Shown here: positions 3,305-11,328 of the stretch, piece by piece
How the letters are laid out: the number at the start of each line of letters is the position of its first letter
Numbering within the stretch: the first letter of the stretch is position 1
NCBI GenBank assembly: GCA_001799795.1
Contig: MGUD01000020.1
Coordinates: forward strand, 3,774 to 36,729
DNA from: Elusimicrobia bacterium GWC2_61_19
Lineage (GTDB): Bacteria > Elusimicrobiota > Elusimicrobia > Elusimicrobiales > UBA9959
Direction: 5' to 3'
Length of the DNA: 32,956 nt
The notes under the pieces: model-generated
Seen by the model: the letters and a program-made list of their open reading frames with translations, nothing else
Told to the model about the DNA's origin: nothing
Databases searched by the model: none
Program-made: the position numbers and the translations under genes

Positions 3305-3358
3305 AGTATAGGAGGGGGGGTTACGGGATAGTTCAGAACAGGTTCAGGTTTTCCTCAA
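3305..3358 (-). promoter_or_regulatory. Promoter with four 11-bp direct repeats (FlgO-like/hybrid kinase operon)
   Basis: On the minus strand the -10 box TATACT is at 3310-3305. The repeat units start at 3325 (CGTAAC), 3336 (CTGAAC), 3347 (CTGAAC) and 3358 (TTGAGG), an exact 11-bp period with the nearest unit 15 bp from the -10 box. The arrangement and much of the sequence match the promoter at 408-461. The first box contains the TGA stop codon (3357-3355) of the upstream kinase gene. The expected start site near 3298 leaves a short leader holding the ribosome site. Confidence 0.75.
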
Positions 3359-4116
3359 ATCGCCGGGGCGGCGGGCAGGTAGATCTGGAATTCGGTCCCT
3401 TTGCCCTCTTCGGTTCGCACGGTGAGCCAGCCGTTATGCTGGTTAACGGCGCCGTAAACGGCCGACAGGCCCAGGCCGGTGCCCTGGCCTTTGGGTTTGG
3501 TGGTGAAAAAGGGTTCGAAAATGCGCTCCAGCGTTTCCGCGGCCATGCCGCGGCCGCCGTCCTTTACCGACAGGAGGGCGAATTTCAGCCCCGCTTCCCG
3601 CGGATCGCGGGAGCGCACTTCCTCCGGCTTAAGCGTGACGGCCCGCGTGGCCAGCCGTATAAGGCCGCCGGTCGGCATGGCGTCGCGCGCGTTCAGGATG
3701 AGAACGTTCAACAGCTGGTCCAGCTGCGCCTGGTCCGCGGGCAGGGCCGGCAGGCCCGGCTCCAGGTCCAGCTCTACGCTGACGCCCGGCCCGTTCAGGG
3801 GGGCGGCCGCCTCTTTGGCCCTTTCGGCCGCGGCGTTAAGGTCGCAGGGCTTTTTGCTCAGGACCTGCTTGCGGCTGAACATCAGCAGGGCTTTCGTGAG
3901 GGCGGCGGCCCTGGCCACGGCCCGGCGGATCTCTTCCAGGTCCGGTTTTAGGGGGTCGTCCTCTTTAAGGGTGTTCAGTATCAGCGTGGAATAGCCCTCT
4001 ATGGCGCCCAGGATATTGTTGATGTCGTGCGACACCTTGGCGGACAGCCTGCCCATGGCCTCCAGCTTTTTCACGTCGGGGTTGATCAGGCCGGGTTTGA
4101 TCTCGGGTGGGGTCAT
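3355..4116 (-). CDS. Small soluble histidine kinase (HisKA-HATPase, no sensor domain)
   Basis: The 253-residue kinase has essentially no sensory region. The phospho-acceptor H30 (KVSHDINN) lies only 30 residues from the start and is followed by the dimerisation helices (to about 95) and a complete HATPase domain (NARDAMP, VKDGGRGM, GQGTGLGLS). It resembles the catalytic core of the hybrid kinase at 463-2409, suggesting duplication. It begins 9 bp after the OmpR-type regulator gene, in the same operon. Because the GAF/PAS kinase two genes upstream has a phospho-acceptor helix but no ATPase domain, this protein could supply the missing catalytic function in trans. That pairing is inference. Confidence 0.9.
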   Translation of the reverse strand: MTPPEIKPGLINPDVKKLEAMGRLSAKVSHDINNILGAIEGYSTLILNTLKEDDPLKPDLEEIRRAVARAAALTKALLMFSRKQVLSKKPCDLNAAAERAKEAAAPLNGPGVSVELDLEPGLPALPADQAQLDQLLNVLILNARDAMPTGGLIRLATRAVTLKPEEVRSRDPREAGLKFALLSVKDGGRGMAAETLERIFEPFFTTKPKGQGTGLGLSAVYGAVNQHNGWLTVRTEEGKGTEFQIYLPAAPAI

Positions 4117-4125
4117 AGAGGGTCC

Positions 4126-4818
4126 CTATTCGAACTTGTAGCCGTGGCCGGTCACGCTGGTAATGCGCGCGGCCATTTTTACGCCCAGCTTCTTCCTCAG
4201 GGAGGAAATATGCGTCTCCACCGTGTGCGGGTTGTCGTAGGTGGCCATGTCGTAGCCCCAGACCGTTTCCAGCAGGTAGGGCACGCTGAGTACGCGGCCC
4301 TTCTTTTCCAGCAGCAGCGTCAGCAGGTCGAATTCTTTGCGGGTCAGCGGCACCGGTTTGCCGGAGACCTTTACGCTGCGGGCCTCCGGGTCCAGTTCCA
4401 CCTCTTTATTCTTTATCCTGCCGGTCCTGCCCTCCATAGTCGCGCCGTAGCGGCGCAGCACGGCGTTGATCTTGGCGGTCAGCACCGGGAAGGCGAAAGG
4501 TTTGGTGAGGTAATCGTCGGCGCCCTTGTCGTAACCCTCCACGATGTCCTCGTCGTCGGTCCTGCCGCCGGAGATTATTATCACCGGCGTGTGCGCCGTC
4601 TTGGGCGCGGCCTTCAGGGCTTTGCACAGTTCAAAGCCGTCCAGCCCCGGCAGCTGCACGTCGGCTACCACCACGTCGGGCTTGGAGTCCCTGGCCATCA
4701 TCAGCGCTTCGGAGCCGTTGTCCGTGAAGATCACGGAGAAATCGTGGTTCTCCAGGTAGCGCCGCATCACTTCCAGCATTTTCCTGTCGTCGTCCACCAG
4801 CAGCACTTTTTTAGGCAT
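4126..4818 (-). CDS. OmpR/PhoB-family response regulator
   Basis: The 230-residue two-domain regulator has a receiver with D10/D11, acceptor D53 (VADVQLPG), the IISGG Ser and K106 (YLTKPF). After a linker follows a winged-helix DNA-binding domain (about 130-230) with the usual PLTRKEFDLL, YLLETVWGY, THISSLRKKLG and GHGYKF elements. Such regulators bind direct repeats about 11 bp apart as head-to-tail dimers, which fits the four repeat arrays in this cluster. The start codon overlaps the end of the upstream sensor gene by 8 bp, implying translational coupling. Confidence 0.95.
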   Translation of the reverse strand: MPKKVLLVDDDRKMLEVMRRYLENHDFSVIFTDNGSEALMMARDSKPDVVVADVQLPGLDGFELCKALKAAPKTAHTPVIIISGGRTDDEDIVEGYDKGADDYLTKPFAFPVLTAKINAVLRRYGATMEGRTGRIKNKEVELDPEARSVKVSGKPVPLTRKEFDLLTLLLEKKGRVLSVPYLLETVWGYDMATYDNPHTVETHISSLRKKLGVKMAARITSVTGHGYKFE

Positions 4819-6772
4819 TGCCGCCCCCCTGTCCGCCTATTTTGGGATTCCTGGCGAAGTCCTGGAATTTGCTGGTAAGTTCCGCCGCGCGCTGGACGGC
4901 CTTTATGATCTGGGAGATCTCGGTCTTTATCGGGCTTGTGTCGGTAAGGCCGTCGTCTATCAGCGTGGCGTAGCCGTTTATGGCCGCCAGGGCGTTGTTG
5001 AAGTCGTGGGCCATGGGCCTGGCCACTTCGCTCACGGCGTCGGCGGCGCGCGCTATGGCCAGTTCGGCTTCCATGCGCTTAAGGTCGGTTATATCGCGGG
5101 CGATGCCCAGCAGGCCGATGGTCTTGCCCTGCACGTTCTTCAGCGGGGTCTTTATGATGTTGACGTGCCGGCTGCCGGTGGGAAAGGCGTGGTGGTTTAT
5201 AAGGGACAGCGTGCGGCCGGTGCGTACCACCTCGCTGTCCGTGCGGAAAATTTCGGCCGCGGCCGTTTTGGGCAGATAGTCGGTGTCGGAGCTGCCTATT
5301 ATTTTCTCCGTGGTGGTGCCCAGCAGTTCGGCGCAGGCCTTGTTGGCCTTTACGTACATGCCGTTCATATCCTTTATGAAAATGGCGTCCTTGGCGGTGT
5401 CGAACACCATGCGCATCAGCGTTTCGCTTTCCTTCAGGCGCAGTTCCGTTTCGCGCTGTTCGGTGACGTCGCGTACGACGCAGGTGATGTAGGCGGGTTT
5501 TTCACCGTTAAAAACAAGGCCGCTTTTCTGCTCGGCGTAAAAGTAGGTTCCGTCCTTCCTTTTTGCCCTGAACGGCAGTATGGGCAGGGTGCGGCCGGTC
5601 CTCGCCGCGTTGGCGAGGGCTTTCGTCAAAAAATCCTTATCGTCCGGATGGGAGAACTCCAGAACATTATACCCCACCATCTCCCCGGGAGCGAAGCCGT
5701 AATCTTCCACCCTGGGGCTCATATAGGTTATCCGGCCGGTCAGGTCGGCGGTGTAGATAATGTCTTTCGACGAGGAGATGATGGCCTTGAACCTGGCGTC
5801 CTCCTCGCGCTGTTTGTCCTCGCCCAGTTTGCGCTGCAGTATCATGGCATAGACGCGGGCCAGCTTCTGCGCCGTTTCGAGGTCCTCCGGCCTGTAGTCG
5901 CCTGCGGGGTTGGCCAGCGCCAGCATGCCCAGCAGCTTGCGCCCGGACATGGCCGGTACGCCCAGGAATTTGTCTATTTTTACATGGCCGTGCGGGATGC
6001 CAATGGCCCTGCGGTCTTTGTCGGCCCCATTGGTGAGCAGCGGCTTTTTACGCTTCAGCACCCAGCCCCAGAGCCCGGTGAAGTCCTTGAAGACCACCGG
6101 TTTCTCCGCCATCCGGCACTTCGCGCAGGTTTCGGTGGTGAGGGAAGAGGTCATGAACCAGCCGGTGGCCGGGTCTATGTGGCCGGCGAAGCCGAAATCG
6201 CTGCCGGTCATGCGCCGGGCCTCGTCCATCACGGCCCGGGAGATCTCTTCTATGGAAATATTCGGGAAGGCCAGGTAGAGCTCTTCCACGTGCTTTACCG
6301 CGGAGGCGATGTCTTTCTCCAGGTTCAGTTCGGCGTCCCGCTTCTCGCCCGCGAGCCGCGCGGCTATTATCATGGCGGTGGTCTCGGTCAGGCGCCTGGC
6401 GGATTCTCCGGCAATGCCGGTTTTGCCGGCGCGCGCGAAAATATAACCCGTCCTTGCCCCGCCGTGCATGACGGGCGCGCAGAAGACCGAGCCTTTTTTT
6501 GTCCTTACCGGGCAGACGCGCGGGGAGGCCAGCATAAGGCGCCGTTCGGCCGCCGGGATATTGCTGAAGGCCGCAGTGGGGGCGCTATCCGGGCAGCCGA
6601 CGATGATGGCCAGGCCGCAGCCGCTGCCGAAACCGCCCGGGCCCGACAGGGTGCCCAGTAGCCGGCGCAGGAAAGGCTCAAGGTTGGTCAGTGAAAAGGC
6701 GGTGAGCAGCAGGGCCTGAAGGGTTTTCCCCGGAGCCGCCGGATCCTGATCTGTCATGCCGGTTTTTTTCAT
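4811..6772 (-). CDS. GAF/PAS sensor with phospho-acceptor helix but no ATPase domain
   Basis: The 653-residue cytoplasmic protein has a degenerate GAF-like region (about 20-145), a clear GAF domain with ETCAKC and GLWGWVLKRKKPLLTN (about 165-320), two PAS domains (about 325-450 and 455-575) and a dimerisation/phospho-acceptor domain with H589 in PMAHDFNN. It then ends 64 residues later, in IGGQGGGNA, with no N, G1 or G2 box of an HATPase domain. The next gene begins inside its last codons, so no remnant of a lost domain is left and this is a clean truncation rather than a frameshift. The protein could sense a small ligand or redox state and be phosphorylated in trans, for example by the 3355-4116 kinase. 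Confidence 0.9.
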   Translation of the reverse strand: MKKTGMTDQDPAAPGKTLQALLLTAFSLTNLEPFLRRLLGTLSGPGGFGSGCGLAIIVGCPDSAPTAAFSNIPAAERRLMLASPRVCPVRTKKGSVFCAPVMHGGARTGYIFARAGKTGIAGESARRLTETTAMIIAARLAGEKRDAELNLEKDIASAVKHVEELYLAFPNISIEEISRAVMDEARRMTGSDFGFAGHIDPATGWFMTSSLTTETCAKCRMAEKPVVFKDFTGLWGWVLKRKKPLLTNGADKDRRAIGIPHGHVKIDKFLGVPAMSGRKLLGMLALANPAGDYRPEDLETAQKLARVYAMILQRKLGEDKQREEDARFKAIISSSKDIIYTADLTGRITYMSPRVEDYGFAPGEMVGYNVLEFSHPDDKDFLTKALANAARTGRTLPILPFRAKRKDGTYFYAEQKSGLVFNGEKPAYITCVVRDVTEQRETELRLKESETLMRMVFDTAKDAIFIKDMNGMYVKANKACAELLGTTTEKIIGSSDTDYLPKTAAAEIFRTDSEVVRTGRTLSLINHHAFPTGSRHVNIIKTPLKNVQGKTIGLLGIARDITDLKRMEAELAIARAADAVSEVARPMAHDFNNALAAINGYATLIDDGLTDTSPIKTEISQIIKAVQRAAELTSKFQDFARNPKIGGQGGGNA

Positions 6773-6801: not shown

Positions 6802-7488
6802 CTATTCGAATTTGTAACCGTGGCCCGCCACGGCCTTTATCCGCTTGCCAAAGGCGCCGATCTTGCGGCGGAGGTTGGAGACATGCACCTCGACGGTGTG
6901 CGGATCGTTGTAGTCGGCCGTGTTGTAGCCCCACACCGCCTCCAGCAGGCTGTTAAGGCTGAGCACGCGGCCGGGGTTGGCGGTCAGCGTGTGCAGCAGG
7001 TCGAATTCTTTGGAGGTGAGCTTTACCGGCCGGCCCTTCATCTTTATGGTCCTGGCTTCCAGGTTCAGCTCCAGGTCGCCTTTCTTCTTGACGGCTTCCT
7101 TCTTTTTGCCGCAGGCGGCGCGCTTGAGCATGGCTTTTATTTTGGCCAGCAATATAGGGTAGGAAAAAGGTTTTACCACGTAGTCGTCGGCGCCGTAGCC
7201 GTAGCCGGCGACGTGGTCGGCTTCCGAGACCTTCTTGCCGGTCATTATTATCACCGGGATGCCCGCCAGCACCTTGTTCTCTTTGACGCGGCGGCAGAGC
7301 GTAAAGCCGTCCATGCGCGGCATTTCAACGTCGGTAATTATGATGTCGGGTTTGCCCGCGGGGGCGGCGGCCAGCGCCTCGGCGCCGTTGGCGGCGGAGA
7401 TGGTCTCGAGGCCGTGGTTCTCCAGGTACTTCTTCAAAATGCCAAGAAGCTCCGGGTCGTCGTCCACTATAAGGGCGCGCTCTTTCAT
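6802..7488 (-). CDS. OmpR/PhoB-family response regulator, probably leaderless
   Basis: The 228-residue regulator has a receiver (D10/D11, acceptor D53 in ITDVEMPR, K106 in VVKPF) and a C-terminal winged helix (PVKLTSKEFDLLHTL, LLEAVWGY, VHVSNLRRKIG, GHGYKF). It is a close paralogue of the regulator at 4126-4818, with a lysine-rich linker. There is no Shine-Dalgarno sequence before ATG at 7488. A TATAAT lies at 7500-7495, so transcription should start at or within a base or two of the ATG. It is the first protein gene of a four-gene operon reaching to 3355, 29 bp before the GAF/PAS gene, and directly follows the small-RNA pair it may control. Confidence 0.95.
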   Translation of the reverse strand: MKERALIVDDDPELLGILKKYLENHGLETISAANGAEALAAAPAGKPDIIITDVEMPRMDGFTLCRRVKENKVLAGIPVIIMTGKKVSEADHVAGYGYGADDYVVKPFSYPILLAKIKAMLKRAACGKKKEAVKKKGDLELNLEARTIKMKGRPVKLTSKEFDLLHTLTANPGRVLSLNSLLEAVWGYNTADYNDPHTVEVHVSNLRRKIGAFGKRIKAVAGHGYKFE

Positions 7489-7494
7489 ACCAGA

Positions 7495-7500
7495 ATTATA
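7495..7500 (-). promoter_or_regulatory. -10 box giving a probable leaderless start for the 7488 regulator
   Basis: TATAAT on the minus strand ends 6 bases before the ATG at 7488. The expected start site therefore coincides with the start codon. No good -35 element is visible because the upstream sequence is the U-run of the small-RNA A terminator. Readthrough from that terminator could also supply transcripts. Confidence 0.55.
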
Positions 7501-7514
7501 ATATTTTTACGGGG

Positions 7515-7714
7515 CAAAAAAGCGCCCCGCCGGAACATAACATGAGGTACAGTTGGCTTACTAAGGAGTGGTACTTGCTGTTGCCCGGCGGGGCTTTTAA
7601 AAAGCCAGCGCTGCAGATGCATAGAGCACGGACCCGAAGGCCCGAGTCTTGGGGGTTTGGGTTAGGGGGGCGCACCTACAACGCTGGAGATCTGTTTGTA
7701 AAGAACTAGACTAC
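7515..7714 (-). ncRNA. Structured small RNA, copy A
   Basis: A transcript of about 200 nt is predicted on the minus strand, from near 7714 (below the -10 box at 7726-7721) to a U-run at 7521-7516. A 9-bp closing stem pairs 7687-7679 with 7613-7605 and includes a U-G wobble that works only if the minus strand is the RNA. Inside it are a 33-nt C-rich segment (7676-7644) identical to copy B, and a UUCG-capped hairpin (7644-7629). A 17-nt segment reading GCUCUAUGCAUCUGCAG follows. The 3' half is a large hairpin with GCCCCGCCGGG arms (7594-7583 and 7533-7522), a loop containing ACUCCUUAGU, and the terminator U-run. No reading frame is apparent. I do not recognise a named RNA family. Confidence 0.72.
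7516..7594 (-). terminator. Large terminator hairpin of small RNA A
   Basis: The arms GCCCCGCCGGGC (7594-7583) and CCGGCGGGGCGC (7533-7522) enclose about 50 nt and are followed by six U residues (7521-7516). The loop holds the conserved ACUCCUUAGU (7569-7560). Confidence 0.75.
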
Positions 7715-7720
7715 CCGAAA

Positions 7721-7764
7721 AGTATAACAAAGGCCGTTCAAGAATCGCTCAAATCTTGGTTTAA
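7721..7764 (-). promoter_or_regulatory. Repeat-array promoter of small RNA A
   Basis: The -10 box TATACT lies at 7726-7721. TTGAAC starts at 7741 and TTGAGC at 7752, exactly 11 bp apart, with the nearest unit again 15 bp from the -10 box. A third, weaker unit TTAAAC at 7764 is one base out of phase. The same architecture occurs at three other promoters here. Confidence 0.68.
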
Positions 7765-7788
7765 GATATTCTTAGGACGTAAAAAGAC

Positions 7789-7868
7789 AAAAAAGCACCC
7801 CGCCGGATCTTCGTGGTGAGTTACTTGTGCCTGACTAAGGAGTCTTATCTGATGAGGCCCGGCGGGGC
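7789..7868 (-). terminator. Large terminator hairpin of small RNA B
   Basis: The arms GCCCCGCCGGGC (7868-7857) and CCGGCGGGGUGC (7806-7795) are followed by six U residues (7794-7789). Within the loop, GACU-CCUU-AGUC (7844-7833) can form a small hairpin displaying CCUU. Confidence 0.75.
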
Positions 7869-7995
7869 TTATAAATTAAGCCAGTGCTGCAGATGCATAG
7901 AGCAAGGGGCCCGAAGGCCCCGAGTCTTGGGGGTTTGGGTTAGGGGGGCGCACCGTACAGCACTGGGGATCTGTTTTTAAAGAGCTTCTTCCTAC
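7789..7995 (-). ncRNA. Structured small RNA, copy B
   Basis: This is a paralogue of copy A, about 207 nt on the minus strand, from near 7995 to the U-run at 7794-7789. The closing stem pairs 7966-7958 with 7889-7881. Compared with copy A one pair changes from C-G to U-A and another from U-G to C-G. The UUCG hairpin (7921-7906) changes its outer pair from C-G to G-C. These compensatory changes support the fold and the strand. The 33-nt C-rich segment (7954-7922) and the ACUCCUUAGU loop (7843-7834) are conserved, while the rest of the terminator loop and the 5' leader have diverged. The two copies probably arose by tandem duplication together with their promoters. Confidence 0.75.
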
Positions 7996-8001
7996 ATAAA
8001 A

Positions 8002-8055
8002 ATTATAACAGAACCTGTTCAGGAATCGCTCAAATACGGCTCAAAAGCCGTTCAA
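8002..8055 (-). promoter_or_regulatory. Promoter of small RNA B with four exact 11-bp repeats
   Basis: The -10 box TATAAT lies at 8007-8002. Repeat units start at 8022 (CTGAAC), 8033 (TTGAGC), 8044 (TTGAGC) and 8055 (TTGAAC). All spacings are 11 bp and the nearest unit is 15 bp from the -10 box. This is the cleanest of the four arrays and supplies the consensus YTGARC-N5. Confidence 0.78.
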
Positions 8056-8094
8056 GATTCGCCGCGGGTTTCCTACGACGGGCGCGGGAAATAA

Positions 8095-8100
8095 TATAAT
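8095..8100 (+). promoter_or_regulatory. -10 box of recG
   Basis: TATAAT on the plus strand, 19 bp before the recG ATG. The -35 region is weak. The expected leader is about 13 nt and lacks a Shine-Dalgarno sequence. The repeat array at 8017-8055 lies just upstream, so a bound regulator could also affect recG. Confidence 0.5.
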
Positions 8101-8119
8101 AGCTTTGCGGTAAAAAAAC

Positions 8120-10195
8120 ATGGCTTCCATACAGTTCTTAAAAGGCGTGGGCCCCAAAAAAGCGGAATTATTCGGCCGGCTCGGCATCGAGACCCTGGAC
8201 GATCTGCTTTTTTATTTTCCACGGGCCTGGGAAGACCGGCGCCCGGCCGCCGGCAGGGAACCGCTGCCTTACCTGGACCCCGTCCCCGTCGTGCGCGGCA
8301 AAATAAAAACCGTCCGCGACCTCTATACCTCCAGCCGCCTGCGCATCTTCAAGATAGTGGTGGAGACCCCCTACGGCGAAGCGGAAGCCAGTTTTTTCAA
8401 GCGCCACAGCCCGCGTTTCGACGTGTTCGCGCTGCTGCGCAAAGACCTTAAGCCCGGCCAGGTGGTGTGGGTCACCGGCACCCCCGAGGACCCGCTGTTC
8501 CTGAGCCGCCTGCGCGCCGACGAATATTACCTGGACTCGGACGCCGCCGCGCTGAAGATGCATATAGGCCGCATAGTGCCGGTGTACCCGCTTACGGAAG
8601 GCCTTACCGCCAAATTCATGCGCGAGGCCGCCTACGAGGCCGTCCAGGCCGGAGCCGAAGCCGTGGGGGATTTCCTGCCGCCGGCCCTGGCGCTAAAACG
8701 CGGGCTGGCCGCGCGGGACCTGGCCGTCAGGGCCGTGCATTTCCCGGCCAATAATTTCGAGCTGGCGGCCGCGCGCCGCCGCTTCATCTACGAGGAGCTG
8801 CTGCTGCTGGCGCTGGCCTGGGCCATAAAGAAGCGGCAGACCCGCAGCGTGCTGAAGGGCTTCGGTTACGAAATAAAGAAAAACCTGCTGACCCCTTTCC
8901 GCGAGCGCCTGGGTTTCCAGCTGACCGCGGCGCAGGCGCACGCCATAAACGAGATCTTCGCCGACATGCAGGTCCCCACGCCCATGGGCCGCCTGCTGGA
9001 GGGGGACGTTGGCTCCGGCAAAACGGTGGTGGCGCTGTCGGCCATGCTGCTGGCGGCCGAGAACGGCGGCCAGAGCGTGTTCGCCGCGCCTACCGAGATC
9101 CTGGCCGAACAGCATTTCCTTACTTTTGAAAGATTCCTGAAGGGCCTGGGGGTGCGCTTCGCCCTGCTCACCGGCCGGCTGAAGGCCGCCGAGAAGAAAA
9201 AGGTCCTGGCCGACCTGGCCGGGGGAAAAATAGACATCCTCATAGGCACCCACGCCGTTATCAGCGACGGGGTCAAGTTCAAGAACCTGCGGCTGGTGGT
9301 GGTGGACGAGCAGCACCGCTTCGGCGTGCGCCAGCGCGCGGCCCTGCGGGCCAAGGGCGACAAGGCCGACATGCTTATAATGACGGCCACGCCCATACCG
9401 CGCACGCTGTTCCTGGCGCTGTACGGGGACCTGGACCTGTCGGTCATCAAGGAAATGCCGCCCGGCCGCCCGCCGGTCAAGACCACCGAGGCCACCGAAG
9501 ACATTGCTTTCCAGGCGGCGGCCGACGAAGCGGCCAAAGGCCGGCAGGTTTATATCGTTTATCCCGTTATAGAAGAGACCCAGGCGGCCGATATGAAGTC
9601 GGTCAAGGCCGAATTTGAGCGGTTGAGCGTCTATTTCAAGGGCCGGCGGGTGGCTATGTTGCACGGGCGGCTGCCAGGGGACGAAAAAAAGCGCGTCATG
9701 GAAGATTTTGCCGCCGGCCGTATCGATATCCTGGTGGCTACGCAGGTTATCGAGGTGGGGATCGACGTGGCCAATGCCACGCTGATGGTCATTAACAACG
9801 CGGAACGCTTCGGCCTGGCCAGTTTGCACCAGCTGCGCGGCCGGGTGGGCCGCGGCCGGTGGGCTTCGCGCTGTATGCTGGTGGCGCACGCGCGGGCGGG
9901 GGACTCGGCCGACCGGCTGCGGGCCATGGTGCAGACCTCCAACGGTTTCGAACTGAGCGAGAAGGATATATATATAAGGGGCGCCGGCGAGATCCTTGGC
10001 GTGCGGCAGCACGGCGACATGGACTTTAAGATCGCCGATATGTCGCGGGACAAGGACGTGCTTGAGCAAGCCATCGAGGACCGCGCGGCCCTGCTGGCCG
10101 CCGACCCCGAACTGGTAAAACCGGAAAACGCCCCCCTGCGCCACAAACTCCGATCCCTCTACGCCGCCCGCTGGAACCTCATAGATCTCTCATAG
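8120..10195 (+). CDS. recG: ATP-dependent DNA helicase RecG
   Basis: The 691-residue length is normal for RecG, which remodels stalled replication forks and branch-migrates Holliday junctions. The N-terminal part begins with the helix-hairpin-like GVGPKKAELFGRLGI and contains the OB-fold wedge domain (about 55-200). The helicase core shows Walker A GDVGSGKTVV (G298-T302), the Walker B variant VVDEQHRFG, motif III MTATPIPRT, motif V ATQVIEVGIDV and motif VI HQLRGRVGRG. The C-terminal RecG segment (EILGVRQHGDMDFKIAD) is present. The start follows a short leader without a clear ribosome site. The stop at 10195 is followed after one base by the inverted repeat of the RAYT element. Confidence 0.97.
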   Translation: MASIQFLKGVGPKKAELFGRLGIETLDDLLFYFPRAWEDRRPAAGREPLPYLDPVPVVRGKIKTVRDLYTSSRLRIFKIVVETPYGEAEASFFKRHSPRFDVFALLRKDLKPGQVVWVTGTPEDPLFLSRLRADEYYLDSDAAALKMHIGRIVPVYPLTEGLTAKFMREAAYEAVQAGAEAVGDFLPPALALKRGLAARDLAVRAVHFPANNFELAAARRRFIYEELLLLALAWAIKKRQTRSVLKGFGYEIKKNLLTPFRERLGFQLTAAQAHAINEIFADMQVPTPMGRLLEGDVGSGKTVVALSAMLLAAENGGQSVFAAPTEILAEQHFLTFERFLKGLGVRFALLTGRLKAAEKKKVLADLAGGKIDILIGTHAVISDGVKFKNLRLVVVDEQHRFGVRQRAALRAKGDKADMLIMTATPIPRTLFLALYGDLDLSVIKEMPPGRPPVKTTEATEDIAFQAAADEAAKGRQVYIVYPVIEETQAADMKSVKAEFERLSVYFKGRRVAMLHGRLPGDEKKRVMEDFAAGRIDILVATQVIEVGIDVANATLMVINNAERFGLASLHQLRGRVGRGRWASRCMLVAHARAGDSADRLRAMVQTSNGFELSEKDIYIRGAGEILGVRQHGDMDFKIADMSRDKDVLEQAIEDRAALLAADPELVKPENAPLRHKLRSLYAARWNLIDLS

Positions 10196-10288: not shown

Positions 10289-10356
10289 CTCTGCTATGCT
10301 ATTTGGGCATACGGAGTTGCGGTCGACACGGTCTGTTTGCCCGGCAAGGAGATATT

Positions 10357-11328
10357 ATGCCAAGACATGCAAGGATTAATGTTCCCGGTGCGCTTTACCA
10401 TATAATGACCAGAGGGATAGAAAAACGAAAAATTTTCCTTGGTGATGTGGACCGCCGTGACTTTATTGCGCGTTTGCGTAACGCGCTTGCGGAGCATGGC
10501 TGCGCCTGTTTTGCCTGGGCACTGATGCCTAATCATATTCATCTGCTGCTTAAATCCGGGAATGACGGGGTTTCAGAACTGTTGCGCTCCCTCCTGACCG
10601 GTTACGCGGTAAGCTTTAATCTGCGTCATAAGCGGGTTGGGCATCTTTTTGCCAACCGGTACAAATCCATAATCTGCGATACGGAAGAATACCTGCTGGA
10701 ACTGACGCGGTATATCCATCTCAACCCGCTGCGCGCAAAGATCGTAAACAGCATGGAAGAGCTAAGAGAGTTCCCCTGGTGCGGGCACGGCGCCATCTGC
10801 GGTGCGCGCGAGGCCGCTTGGCAGGATACACGGGAAATACTTCTGCATTTTGGCGACGCCCCGGCTGCCGCACGCAGAAAATATATCGAGTTTGTGGCGG
10901 ATGGCATAGGGAAAGACAAGCCCGGCAGCGGTGTCGGCGCCAAGCGACCGCAAGAGGGTGGCGGAGCGCGGATTTCGGACGAGCGGATCCTTGGATGCCA
11001 GACTTTTGTCCGGTCGGTCCTGGCTAAGCGGCCTGCCGCGGCGGATATAGGCGAAGATCTCCGGCTTAAATTCAACTTGGGGGATATTTTGGGCGTTTGT
11101 GCTGCGCAGTTCGGAGTAAAGGCGGAAGAGTTGCGGTCTGTGGGGCGTTCTAAAGGCGTGTCAAAGGGAAAAGCGCTGGCTATATTCCTGTGTGTAAACT
11201 ATCTTGGCCTGAGAAACTCGGAAATGGCGCGCCTTACCTGTATGCGTGACTCTTCCGCCAGTCTGGCTGCGCGCAGGGGCCGGTGTCTGGCGGAGCAATG
11301 CCGCATATTCGAAAAACTAATTAACTAA
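10357..11328 (+). CDS. REP-associated tyrosine transposase (Transposase_17/RAYT)
   Basis: The 323-residue protein is a single-stranded-DNA HUH transposase of the Y1 type. The metal-binding HUH motif is H60-I-H62 in MPNHIHLLL, and the catalytic tyrosine is most likely Y119 in TRYIHLNP. The N-terminal MPRHARINVPGALYHI is typical of this family. The C-terminal part (about 205-310) resembles the DnaA-type helix-turn-helix often fused to RAYTs. I chose ATG at 10357 because AAGGAGAT lies directly upstream. A longer frame from 10303 adds residues unlike the family. The base composition is less GC-rich than the neighbours, consistent with transfer. The reading frame is intact. Confidence 0.92.
   Translation: MPRHARINVPGALYHIMTRGIEKRKIFLGDVDRRDFIARLRNALAEHGCACFAWALMPNHIHLLLKSGNDGVSELLRSLLTGYAVSFNLRHKRVGHLFANRYKSIICDTEEYLLELTRYIHLNPLRAKIVNSMEELREFPWCGHGAICGAREAAWQDTREILLHFGDAPAAARRKYIEFVADGIGKDKPGSGVGAKRPQEGGGARISDERILGCQTFVRSVLAKRPAAADIGEDLRLKFNLGDILGVCAAQFGVKAEELRSVGRSKGVSKGKALAIFLCVNYLGLRNSEMARLTCMRDSSASLAARRGRCLAEQCRIFEKLIN

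Follow-up and report, generated by a model that had tools for sequence, protein, structure and literature searches.

Two Tandem RNA Genes on the Minus Strand

The window, i.e., the whole stretch of 32,956 nucleotides of Elusimicrobia bacterium GWC2_61_19 that was analysed, contains two predicted RNA genes of approximately 200 nt each, arranged in tandem on the minus strand between positions 7516 and 8055: the upstream copy A (7789–8055) and copy B (7516–7764), promoter repeats included in both. An initial annotation of this DNA had proposed paralogous, structured small RNAs in tandem on this strand, which was borne out by the two modules, their covarying fold and their homologues; the interval given there, 7515–7995, covers both transcripts but leaves out the promoter of copy A. 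The same strand carries an OmpR/PhoB-type response regulator (6802–7488), which domain search and a conserved neighbourhood point to as the likely controller of the RNAs, and a GAF-PAS-HisKA sensor lacking HATPase_c (4811–6772, domain search), the conserved partner of the regulator; recG (8120–10195, plus strand) is divergent from the RNA genes. A Y1 transposase with a DnaA-C domain is located at 10303–11328.

Each copy starts with direct repeats of 11-bp period, followed, 9 nt further on, by a -10 box, a boxA and the 5′ strand of a stem (P1), and continues with a 20-nt C-rich strand, a hairpin with a UUCG loop (P2), the 3′ strand of P1 and a terminator that combines a long-looped, GC-rich hairpin with a U-tract. 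In copy A, four TTGA(A/G)C-type repeats (8017–8055, pattern search) precede the -10 element TATAAT (8002–8007), the boxA GCTCTTTAAAAA (7974–7985), near-identical to the 16S rRNA leader element of the genus, the P1 5′ strand (7949–7966), the C-rich single strand CCCCCCUAACCCAAACCCCC in a one-sided bulge (7929–7948), P2 (7906–7921), the P1 3′ strand (7881–7897) and the terminator (7789–7870), whose loop contains UMAGNC repeats. Copy B has two in-register repeats and a looser third one 12 bp upstream (7736–7764, pattern search), the -10 element TATACT (7721–7726, read from the sequence), the boxA GTTCTTTACAAA (7695–7706, motif search), the P1 5′ strand (7671–7687), a C-rich strand with the same letters as in copy A (7651–7670), P2 (7629–7644), the P1 3′ strand (7605–7621) and the terminator (7516–7597). 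P1 was defined by folding and covariation, P2 by folding and pair conservation, and the C-rich strands and terminators by folding.

The copies are 82% identical (query positions 7–205), with a mean column identity of 86% in a wider alignment, and their longest identical blocks comprise 36 nt (GGTGCGCCCCCCTAACCCAAACCCCCAAGACTCGGG, which includes the C-rich strand) and 19 nt; both identical segments had been noticed before, at the too short lengths of 33 and 17 nt. A terminator had also been assigned to each module and, in fact, the same stem and U-tract are present in both, but a consensus scan flagged only that of copy B, since the loop of copy A is longer than the scan allows.

Secondary Structure and Covariation

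The full modules folded with z-scores of -2.7 and -3.8. P1 comprises 15 modelled pairs, with 98.0% of the cells paired in 44 distinct sequences. Double-sided changes were observed in 11 of the 15 pairs, with none of 500 shuffles as good, and the covariation score of P1 was 0.390, against 0.226 ± 0.010 in shuffled alignments (0/500 as high) and 0.06–0.15 in slid ones. Covariation exceeded every slid control and, on four of five measures, every shuffle, the fifth measure being reached by 2 of 500 shuffles. Fifty of the 64 copies have P2 with its UUCG loop, in 21 distinct versions, each of the six pairs nearest the loop being formed in 20–21 of these 21. The pair exchanges that the initial annotation had described in the closing stem (C-G/U-A and C-G/U-G between the copies) are real; the UUCG hairpin, where it saw a further exchange, is independently supported, but that exchange comes with a 2-nt length difference.

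The conserved centre of this fold is the C-rich one-sided bulge CCCCCCUAACCCAAACCCCC, a strand of 20–24 nt that, given the covariation, P1 and P2 would together hold out; an unpaired C-rich segment within a structured RNA, as in sX13 and GsrN, is thus predicted and covariation-supported. In genera g11, g12 and g13 the sequence of P2 differs but the fold is kept, with P2 stacked on P1 and the C-rich strand as a one-sided bulge (z-scores of -6.6, -6.1 and -6.3, respectively), and one g10 copy, L177, has a stem capped by one long C-tract loop (z -6.1), so that the core domains of these four genera, one copy each, range from -6.1 to -6.6. A U-rich stretch directly follows P1 in the g13 and g10 copies (weakest in L176), indicating that the second hairpin is not always needed. 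By eye, a hairpin with the same loop motif precedes P1 instead in g2 (L044), and palindrome-rich REP-like inserts are seen after P1 of one RNA copy at L006, L010, L011 and L021.

The plus strand reads GGGGGTTTGGGTTAGGGGGG, which would suit a sequence that acts as DNA, as a plus-strand G-quadruplex or a recombination site, and not as RNA. Nevertheless, the stems covary as RNA pairs, and many G-U pairs within them are valid on the minus strand only, in agreement with the minus-strand wobble noted in the initial annotation; moreover, promoter, boxA and terminator are in register with the minus strand, and the single-stranded presentation recurs in other scaffolds. We consider an action as DNA very improbable.

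Distribution of the Family

A DNA search of 150 relatives showed that almost every member of the genus has the element, usually as a tandem pair. A covariance model (R1) of the P1/C-rich/P2 core was built from 46 sequences, taken from 64 core copies with near-duplicates omitted (44 distinct rows in the covariation count; L002 was dropped, being the same locus as L001), and run on 340 genomes of the phylum, many of them incomplete, with stricter filters. R1 matched in 49 of the 340 genomes, all within the Elusimicrobiota family of the window (31/32 genomes of the genus and 18/27 of the family's other genera), and in none of the 281 phylum genomes outside it. Two of the 31 genus matches (G008 and G020) are a different C-rich hairpin; G020 also has a truncated copy of the RNA type found in the window, hereafter class I, at a contig end. 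Class I copies were not found in G001 and G008, which places this RNA in 30 of the 32 genus genomes, and it is present in seven other genera (g2, g3, g8, g10, g11, g12 and g13), within g8 in only two of four genomes. The g4 match is weak (35.7 bits, G034) and was left unclassified.

No match at the gathering cut-off of Rfam 15 was obtained with the whole window, in line with the failure of the initial annotation to recognise a family. For positions 7450–8150 the best minus-strand match was sX11 (12.9 bits against a cut-off of 70, E 9.2), and nine other loci gave only sub-threshold matches at these RNAs, that of lowest E being BSnc120 on the opposite strand of L045 (E 0.0011, 31.3 bits against a cut-off of 114); the single match exceeding its cut-off there, 2dG-II in L207, is a separate element. 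Membership of an Rfam family, sX11 and 6S included, was rejected, as nothing at these RNAs reaches its cut-off. 6S RNA, whose bubble resembles an open promoter, is not among the matches listed up to E 10 in 7450–8150 or up to E 1 in the nine other loci, and this result, together with the one-sided, C-rich bubble, argues against a 6S identity. The covariance-model search of relatives and Rfam that the initial annotation had recommended thus retrieved homologues in the genus and in other genera and none in Rfam, and these homologues, on whose existence that annotation depended, covary strongly. By sequence and covariation, the two copies belong to a real, new RNA family.

Promoter and Neighbouring Two-Component System

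The promoter pattern TTGARC-N5-TTGAAC-N9-TATANT, searched with up to one mismatch in 32 genomes, gave 56 matches in 29 of them, 47 at these RNAs, and none when reversed. Five of the nine other matches precede a NifU-like gene (L211, L212, L213, L215 and L216; one gene identified by domain search, the others by similar printed sequence), which may belong to the same regulon as the RNAs, since similar TTGARC direct repeats lie at equal distance from its -10 box. A promoter for each module had been proposed, and it stands as 11-bp repeats plus a -10 box; a canonical sigma-70 promoter was rejected, because the consensus scan found 0 sites (mean of 0.7 in shuffles). The lack of such a site fits an activator-dependent promoter, and we take the layout as one in which an OmpR/PhoB-type activator stands in for the -35 box.

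The neighbourhood was read in nine loci of other genera, eight of them with the motif, from the 18 other-genus genomes matched. An OmpR-type response regulator and a GAF/PAS sensor adjoin the RNA in the window and in seven of the eight motif-bearing loci (at L036 only the PAS part of the sensor lies within the stretch read), the RNA being upstream of these genes in g3, g8 and g11 and downstream in g10 and g13; at the g12 locus (L222) the RNA is present with no OmpR-type regulator beside it. The regulator of the window scores below the cut-off of every NCBIfam model among the matches listed (25 of 95). Judging from promoter layout and conserved neighbourhood, the neighbouring regulator probably switches on the RNAs: in its active form it would bind the 11-bp direct repeats and recruit RNA polymerase to the promoter lacking a -35 box.

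A -10-like TATTATAAT box ends 6 bases before the ATG of the regulator (7486–7503), and this short distance suggests that the regulator mRNA is leaderless. The sensor counterparts in L221, L223, L224, L225 and L226 also lack HATPase_c, and a separate HisKA+HATPase protein is encoded in the same gene row of the window (3355–4116), which suggests that it forms a split kinase with the sensor.

BoxA Leader Element

Among the 67 copies whose upstream sequence reached 110 nt or more, GYTCTYTA is present within 115 nt upstream of the C-rich strand in 56 copies as an exact match (background of 0.010 per 115 nt) and in 66 with up to one mismatch, the latter count being weaker evidence, given its background of 0.15 per 115 nt. 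No 16S gene was found in the window's own genome, so the comparison with rRNA leaders was made in four same-genus genomes, and in all four leaders GCTCTCTAAAAAA lies 252–270 nt before 16S; an rRNA-leader match is therefore located near the 5′ end of these RNAs. The boxA of copy A fully matches GYTCTTTAANA, the consensus described for gamma-proteobacteria (PMC5725501). Unlike the boxA of rRNA leaders and suhB, that of the window precedes a short, terminated non-coding RNA, a class that the published survey states to have left out of consideration (PMC5725501). The element, known from rRNA and some mRNA leaders, is thus now observed on a short non-coding RNA. Such a transcript, untranslated and with a C-rich strand devoid of G, would be expected to recruit Rho, a problem that protection by boxA would remove: on the nascent RNA the element would be the NusB/S10 signal of rRNA leaders and would probably shield the C-rich, rut-like RNA from Rho.

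As boxA is an antitermination signal (PMC5725501), and as the RNA is upstream of the regulator and in the same orientation in g1, g3, g8 and g11, the RNA could also be a cis-acting leader, in which boxA-modified polymerase would read through the terminator(s) into the regulator operon, by attenuation or antitermination. This is disfavoured by the loci in which the RNA lies downstream of regulator and sensor (g13 and g10), and also by the g12 locus without adjacent OmpR-type regulator and by a g8 locus (L224) where a 211-aa ORF without Pfam match separates RNA and regulator. In the window, moreover, the tandem copies each come with a separate promoter and terminator, and a -10-like box of the regulator's own stands immediately before its start codon ATG; we regard a cis-acting leader as improbable.

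The C-Rich Strand on Other Scaffolds and Its G-Rich Complement

Searching the complement GGGTTTGGGTTAGGG with up to one mismatch in 32 genomes gave 68 matches, against 4 for the reversed control. Seventeen lie outside class I RNAs: 5 in a G-rich 3′ UTR and 12 in other C-rich hairpins (6 of a second type, 5 of a fourth type and 1 before another receiver-like gene, L208). The one or two hairpins folded per type gave z-scores of -3.6 (second), -3.8 (third) and -1.7 and -2.1 (fourth, hence the weaker by folding), the remainder being judged by eye. A pattern for the second type, with matches in 34 of 59 genomes and 1 reversed-control match, retrieved mostly class I copies and was excluded from the counts. 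The third type is a short hairpin with the loop CCTCCCTCACCCTACCCCCC and a TTGACA/TAGAAT-like promoter, present once per genome in 21 of 32 genomes (0 control matches) and not found in the window's own genome (1.11 Mb, 66% complete). The latter has 11 three-tract C arrays in its 1.11 Mb, with a strong stem only in copies A and B, according to a pattern unable to detect the third hairpin type.

In 15 of the 21 third-type loci, the G-rich element GGGTTAGGGRGG, or a version with one mismatch, lies 135–188 nt upstream of the hairpin (expectation of 0.0015 per 420-nt stretch; 0/21 for the reversed pattern and 0/21 on the other strand). Eight of these loci were read further upstream, and in these the element lies between the end of a receiver-type regulator gene and a terminator-like hairpin; the two regulator genes submitted to domain search encode HTH_17-receiver proteins. 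Duplexes of the element with the third-type loop are predicted at -27.6 to -34.9 kcal/mol (computed without shuffled control), and by eye it could pair with as many as 17 nt of class I. The exact 14-mer GGGTTAGGGGGGCG has six matches outside class I in 59 genomes, against three for the reversed control; four of the six are this 3′ UTR element and two lie near possible gene starts (L141 and L142). In the window's own genome (66% complete) it was not found outside the two RNAs.

Hfq was not detected in any of the 59 genomes (control search positive in 5 of 14). To look at start sites, the C-rich seed was scanned against 901 predicted start regions of the 1.11-Mb own genome, together with one reversed and eight permuted seeds. 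The real seed gave 144 sites below -18 kcal/mol (reversed 144, permuted 106–163), 96 below -20 kcal/mol (controls 64–94) and 53 below -22 kcal/mol (controls 31–59), so that the excess at start regions is at most marginal, save one best site of -34.4 kcal/mol (L284, position 6974), against -32.6 for the best control. G-runs occur at about double the frequency immediately before starts, an excess that may partly reflect the choice of starts, which favours G-rich sites. Generic anti-Shine-Dalgarno targeting is not supported, nor is broad targeting of ribosome-binding sites, the scan showing no clear enrichment; a specific target set is possible. The protein start at L284 (YNPDAELAKGA) resembles one located just downstream of a fourth-type hairpin (L206).

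The main rival to target pairing, which we favour, is a protein decoy, in which the C-tract strand would titrate an RNA-binding protein in the manner of CsrB/RsmZ. These RNAs titrate the protein CsrA, are regulator-driven and carry repeated motifs in their loops; the present RNAs share the latter two features, although by eye we noticed no ANGGA array in them. Candidate ligands would be C-tract binders such as Rho, a KH protein or a cold-shock protein. The C-tracts with their A/U spacers are kept while tract number and spacing drift between genera (C6-C3-C5 in g1, C6-C5-C5-C4 in g12, five tracts in the g10 copies L174 and L175), and the looser spacing of g10 is no less compatible with a protein ligand than with long pairing. 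A decoy would also suit the G-free g1 strand, the persistence of the strand on differing scaffolds and the start regions without clear target enrichment. On the other hand, the 20-nt g1 strand is nearly letter-perfect, which exceeds the need of C-tract binding alone, one C-rich strand per RNA makes a small sponge, and the conserved G-rich complement in the 3′ UTR is left unexplained.

The terminator loop may be a second binding module, and its repeats would perhaps bind the decoy's ligand too: 75 UMAGNC motifs occur in 39 terminator loops (those of 89 with the core upstream), against 4.2 in mononucleotide shuffles, an excess that also speaks for a decoy, although common descent of these homologous loops accounts for part of it. 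The rest of the own genome showed no clear enrichment of UMAGNC arrays (double motifs: 9, controls 6 and 4; triple motifs: 1, controls 0 and 0), and a genome-wide protein site was rejected for that reason. Weighing these points, we consider a protein decoy unlikely, if less so than a cis-acting leader.

Relation to Known Small RNAs

In the one open-licence library consulted, where relevance was judged partly by title, no small-RNA study of Elusimicrobia or Elusimicrobiota was found, and the nearest published cases are sX13 and GsrN. The C-rich loops of Xanthomonas sX13 are described as pairing with G-rich mRNA motifs without Hfq (PMC3771888), and those of Caulobacter GsrN as pairing with G-rich mRNA (PMC5869019). 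The family would work most like these two, by analogy: all are strongly structured RNAs with exposed C-rich segments for which complementary G-rich elements exist, and the Hfq independence reported for sX13 (PMC3771888) parallels the lack of detectable Hfq here. The C-rich segment, however, is one long strand in a one-sided bulge, and not the apical C4/C5 loops described for sX13 (PMC3771888), and boxA leader, tandem copies and adjacent response regulator likewise distinguish the present family. This distinction from sX13 and GsrN is drawn from their descriptions, with sequence compared through Rfam, where no family matched.

In its control, the family appears to resemble csRNAs and OmrA/OmrB. 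The streptococcal CiaR csRNAs are multicopy RNAs with the promoter repeat TTTAAG-N5-TTTAAG, csRNA1 having 93 nt (PMC8186281). The resemblance to them pointed out in the initial annotation holds for the multiple copies and for the direct repeat of a two-component regulator with 11-bp period (PMC8186281), and so does the remark that the present RNAs are longer (approximately 200 nt); the repeat, however, is TTGARC-N5-TTGARC, which speaks against membership of the CiaR-dependent csRNAs, and boxA and adjacent regulator genes are further differences. Enterobacterial OmrA and OmrB are tandem siblings of 82–88 nt under EnvZ/OmpR that interact with Hfq (PMC4211561). Tandem arrangement and an OmpR-type regulator, here adjacent, are shared, but the ends of OmrA and OmrB are near-identical and their middles variable, whereas the longest identical block of copies A and B is internal; with Hfq not found in 59 genomes, an OmrA/OmrB-type assignment was rejected.

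Proposed Function

We propose, with a probability of about 0.5, that copies A and B represent a new family of Hfq-independent, trans-acting small RNAs, regulator-controlled, whose C-rich bulge would pair with G-rich RNAs. Once transcribed, and ended by the terminator hairpin, the RNA would base-pair through its bulge with a G-rich RNA, the best candidate being the conserved G-rich 3′ UTR element of the HTH-receiver regulator gene in relatives; G-rich ribosome-binding regions may be further targets. BoxA, the conserved neighbouring regulator, the other C-rich RNA types and the 3′ UTR complement go beyond the initial annotation. The results add a conserved, covariation-supported RNA family to Elusimicrobiota and, on circumstantial evidence, tie a two-component system to RNA output in bacteria without detectable Hfq.

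Since a nearly identical C-rich strand is carried by other hairpin RNAs with other promoters, one G-rich target set would receive several inputs, and the one strand on several scaffolds with its complement in a regulator 3′ UTR makes a concrete, testable network. A more speculative reading, which we hold to be rather doubtful, is one of convergence: in a bacterial family without detectable Hfq, RNA scaffolds unrelated to each other and driven by different promoters would each have arrived at one and the same C-tract strand, recognised in trans by a shared partner, either a dedicated protein that binds C-tracts (Rho being a possibility) or a hub RNA rich in G, such as the regulator 3′ UTR. If true, this would be an RNA signalling network specific to the lineage, with boxA allowing the main RNA to evade the factor by which it would otherwise be terminated.

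Many of the third-type promoters (L285–L305) carry a TGTRAC-N4-GTYACA palindrome, which is reminiscent of CRP/FNR-family sites. A separate element, a 2dG-II purine riboswitch (76.9 bits against a cut-off of 60), is located near a C-rich hairpin locus, at positions 1566–1637 of L207.
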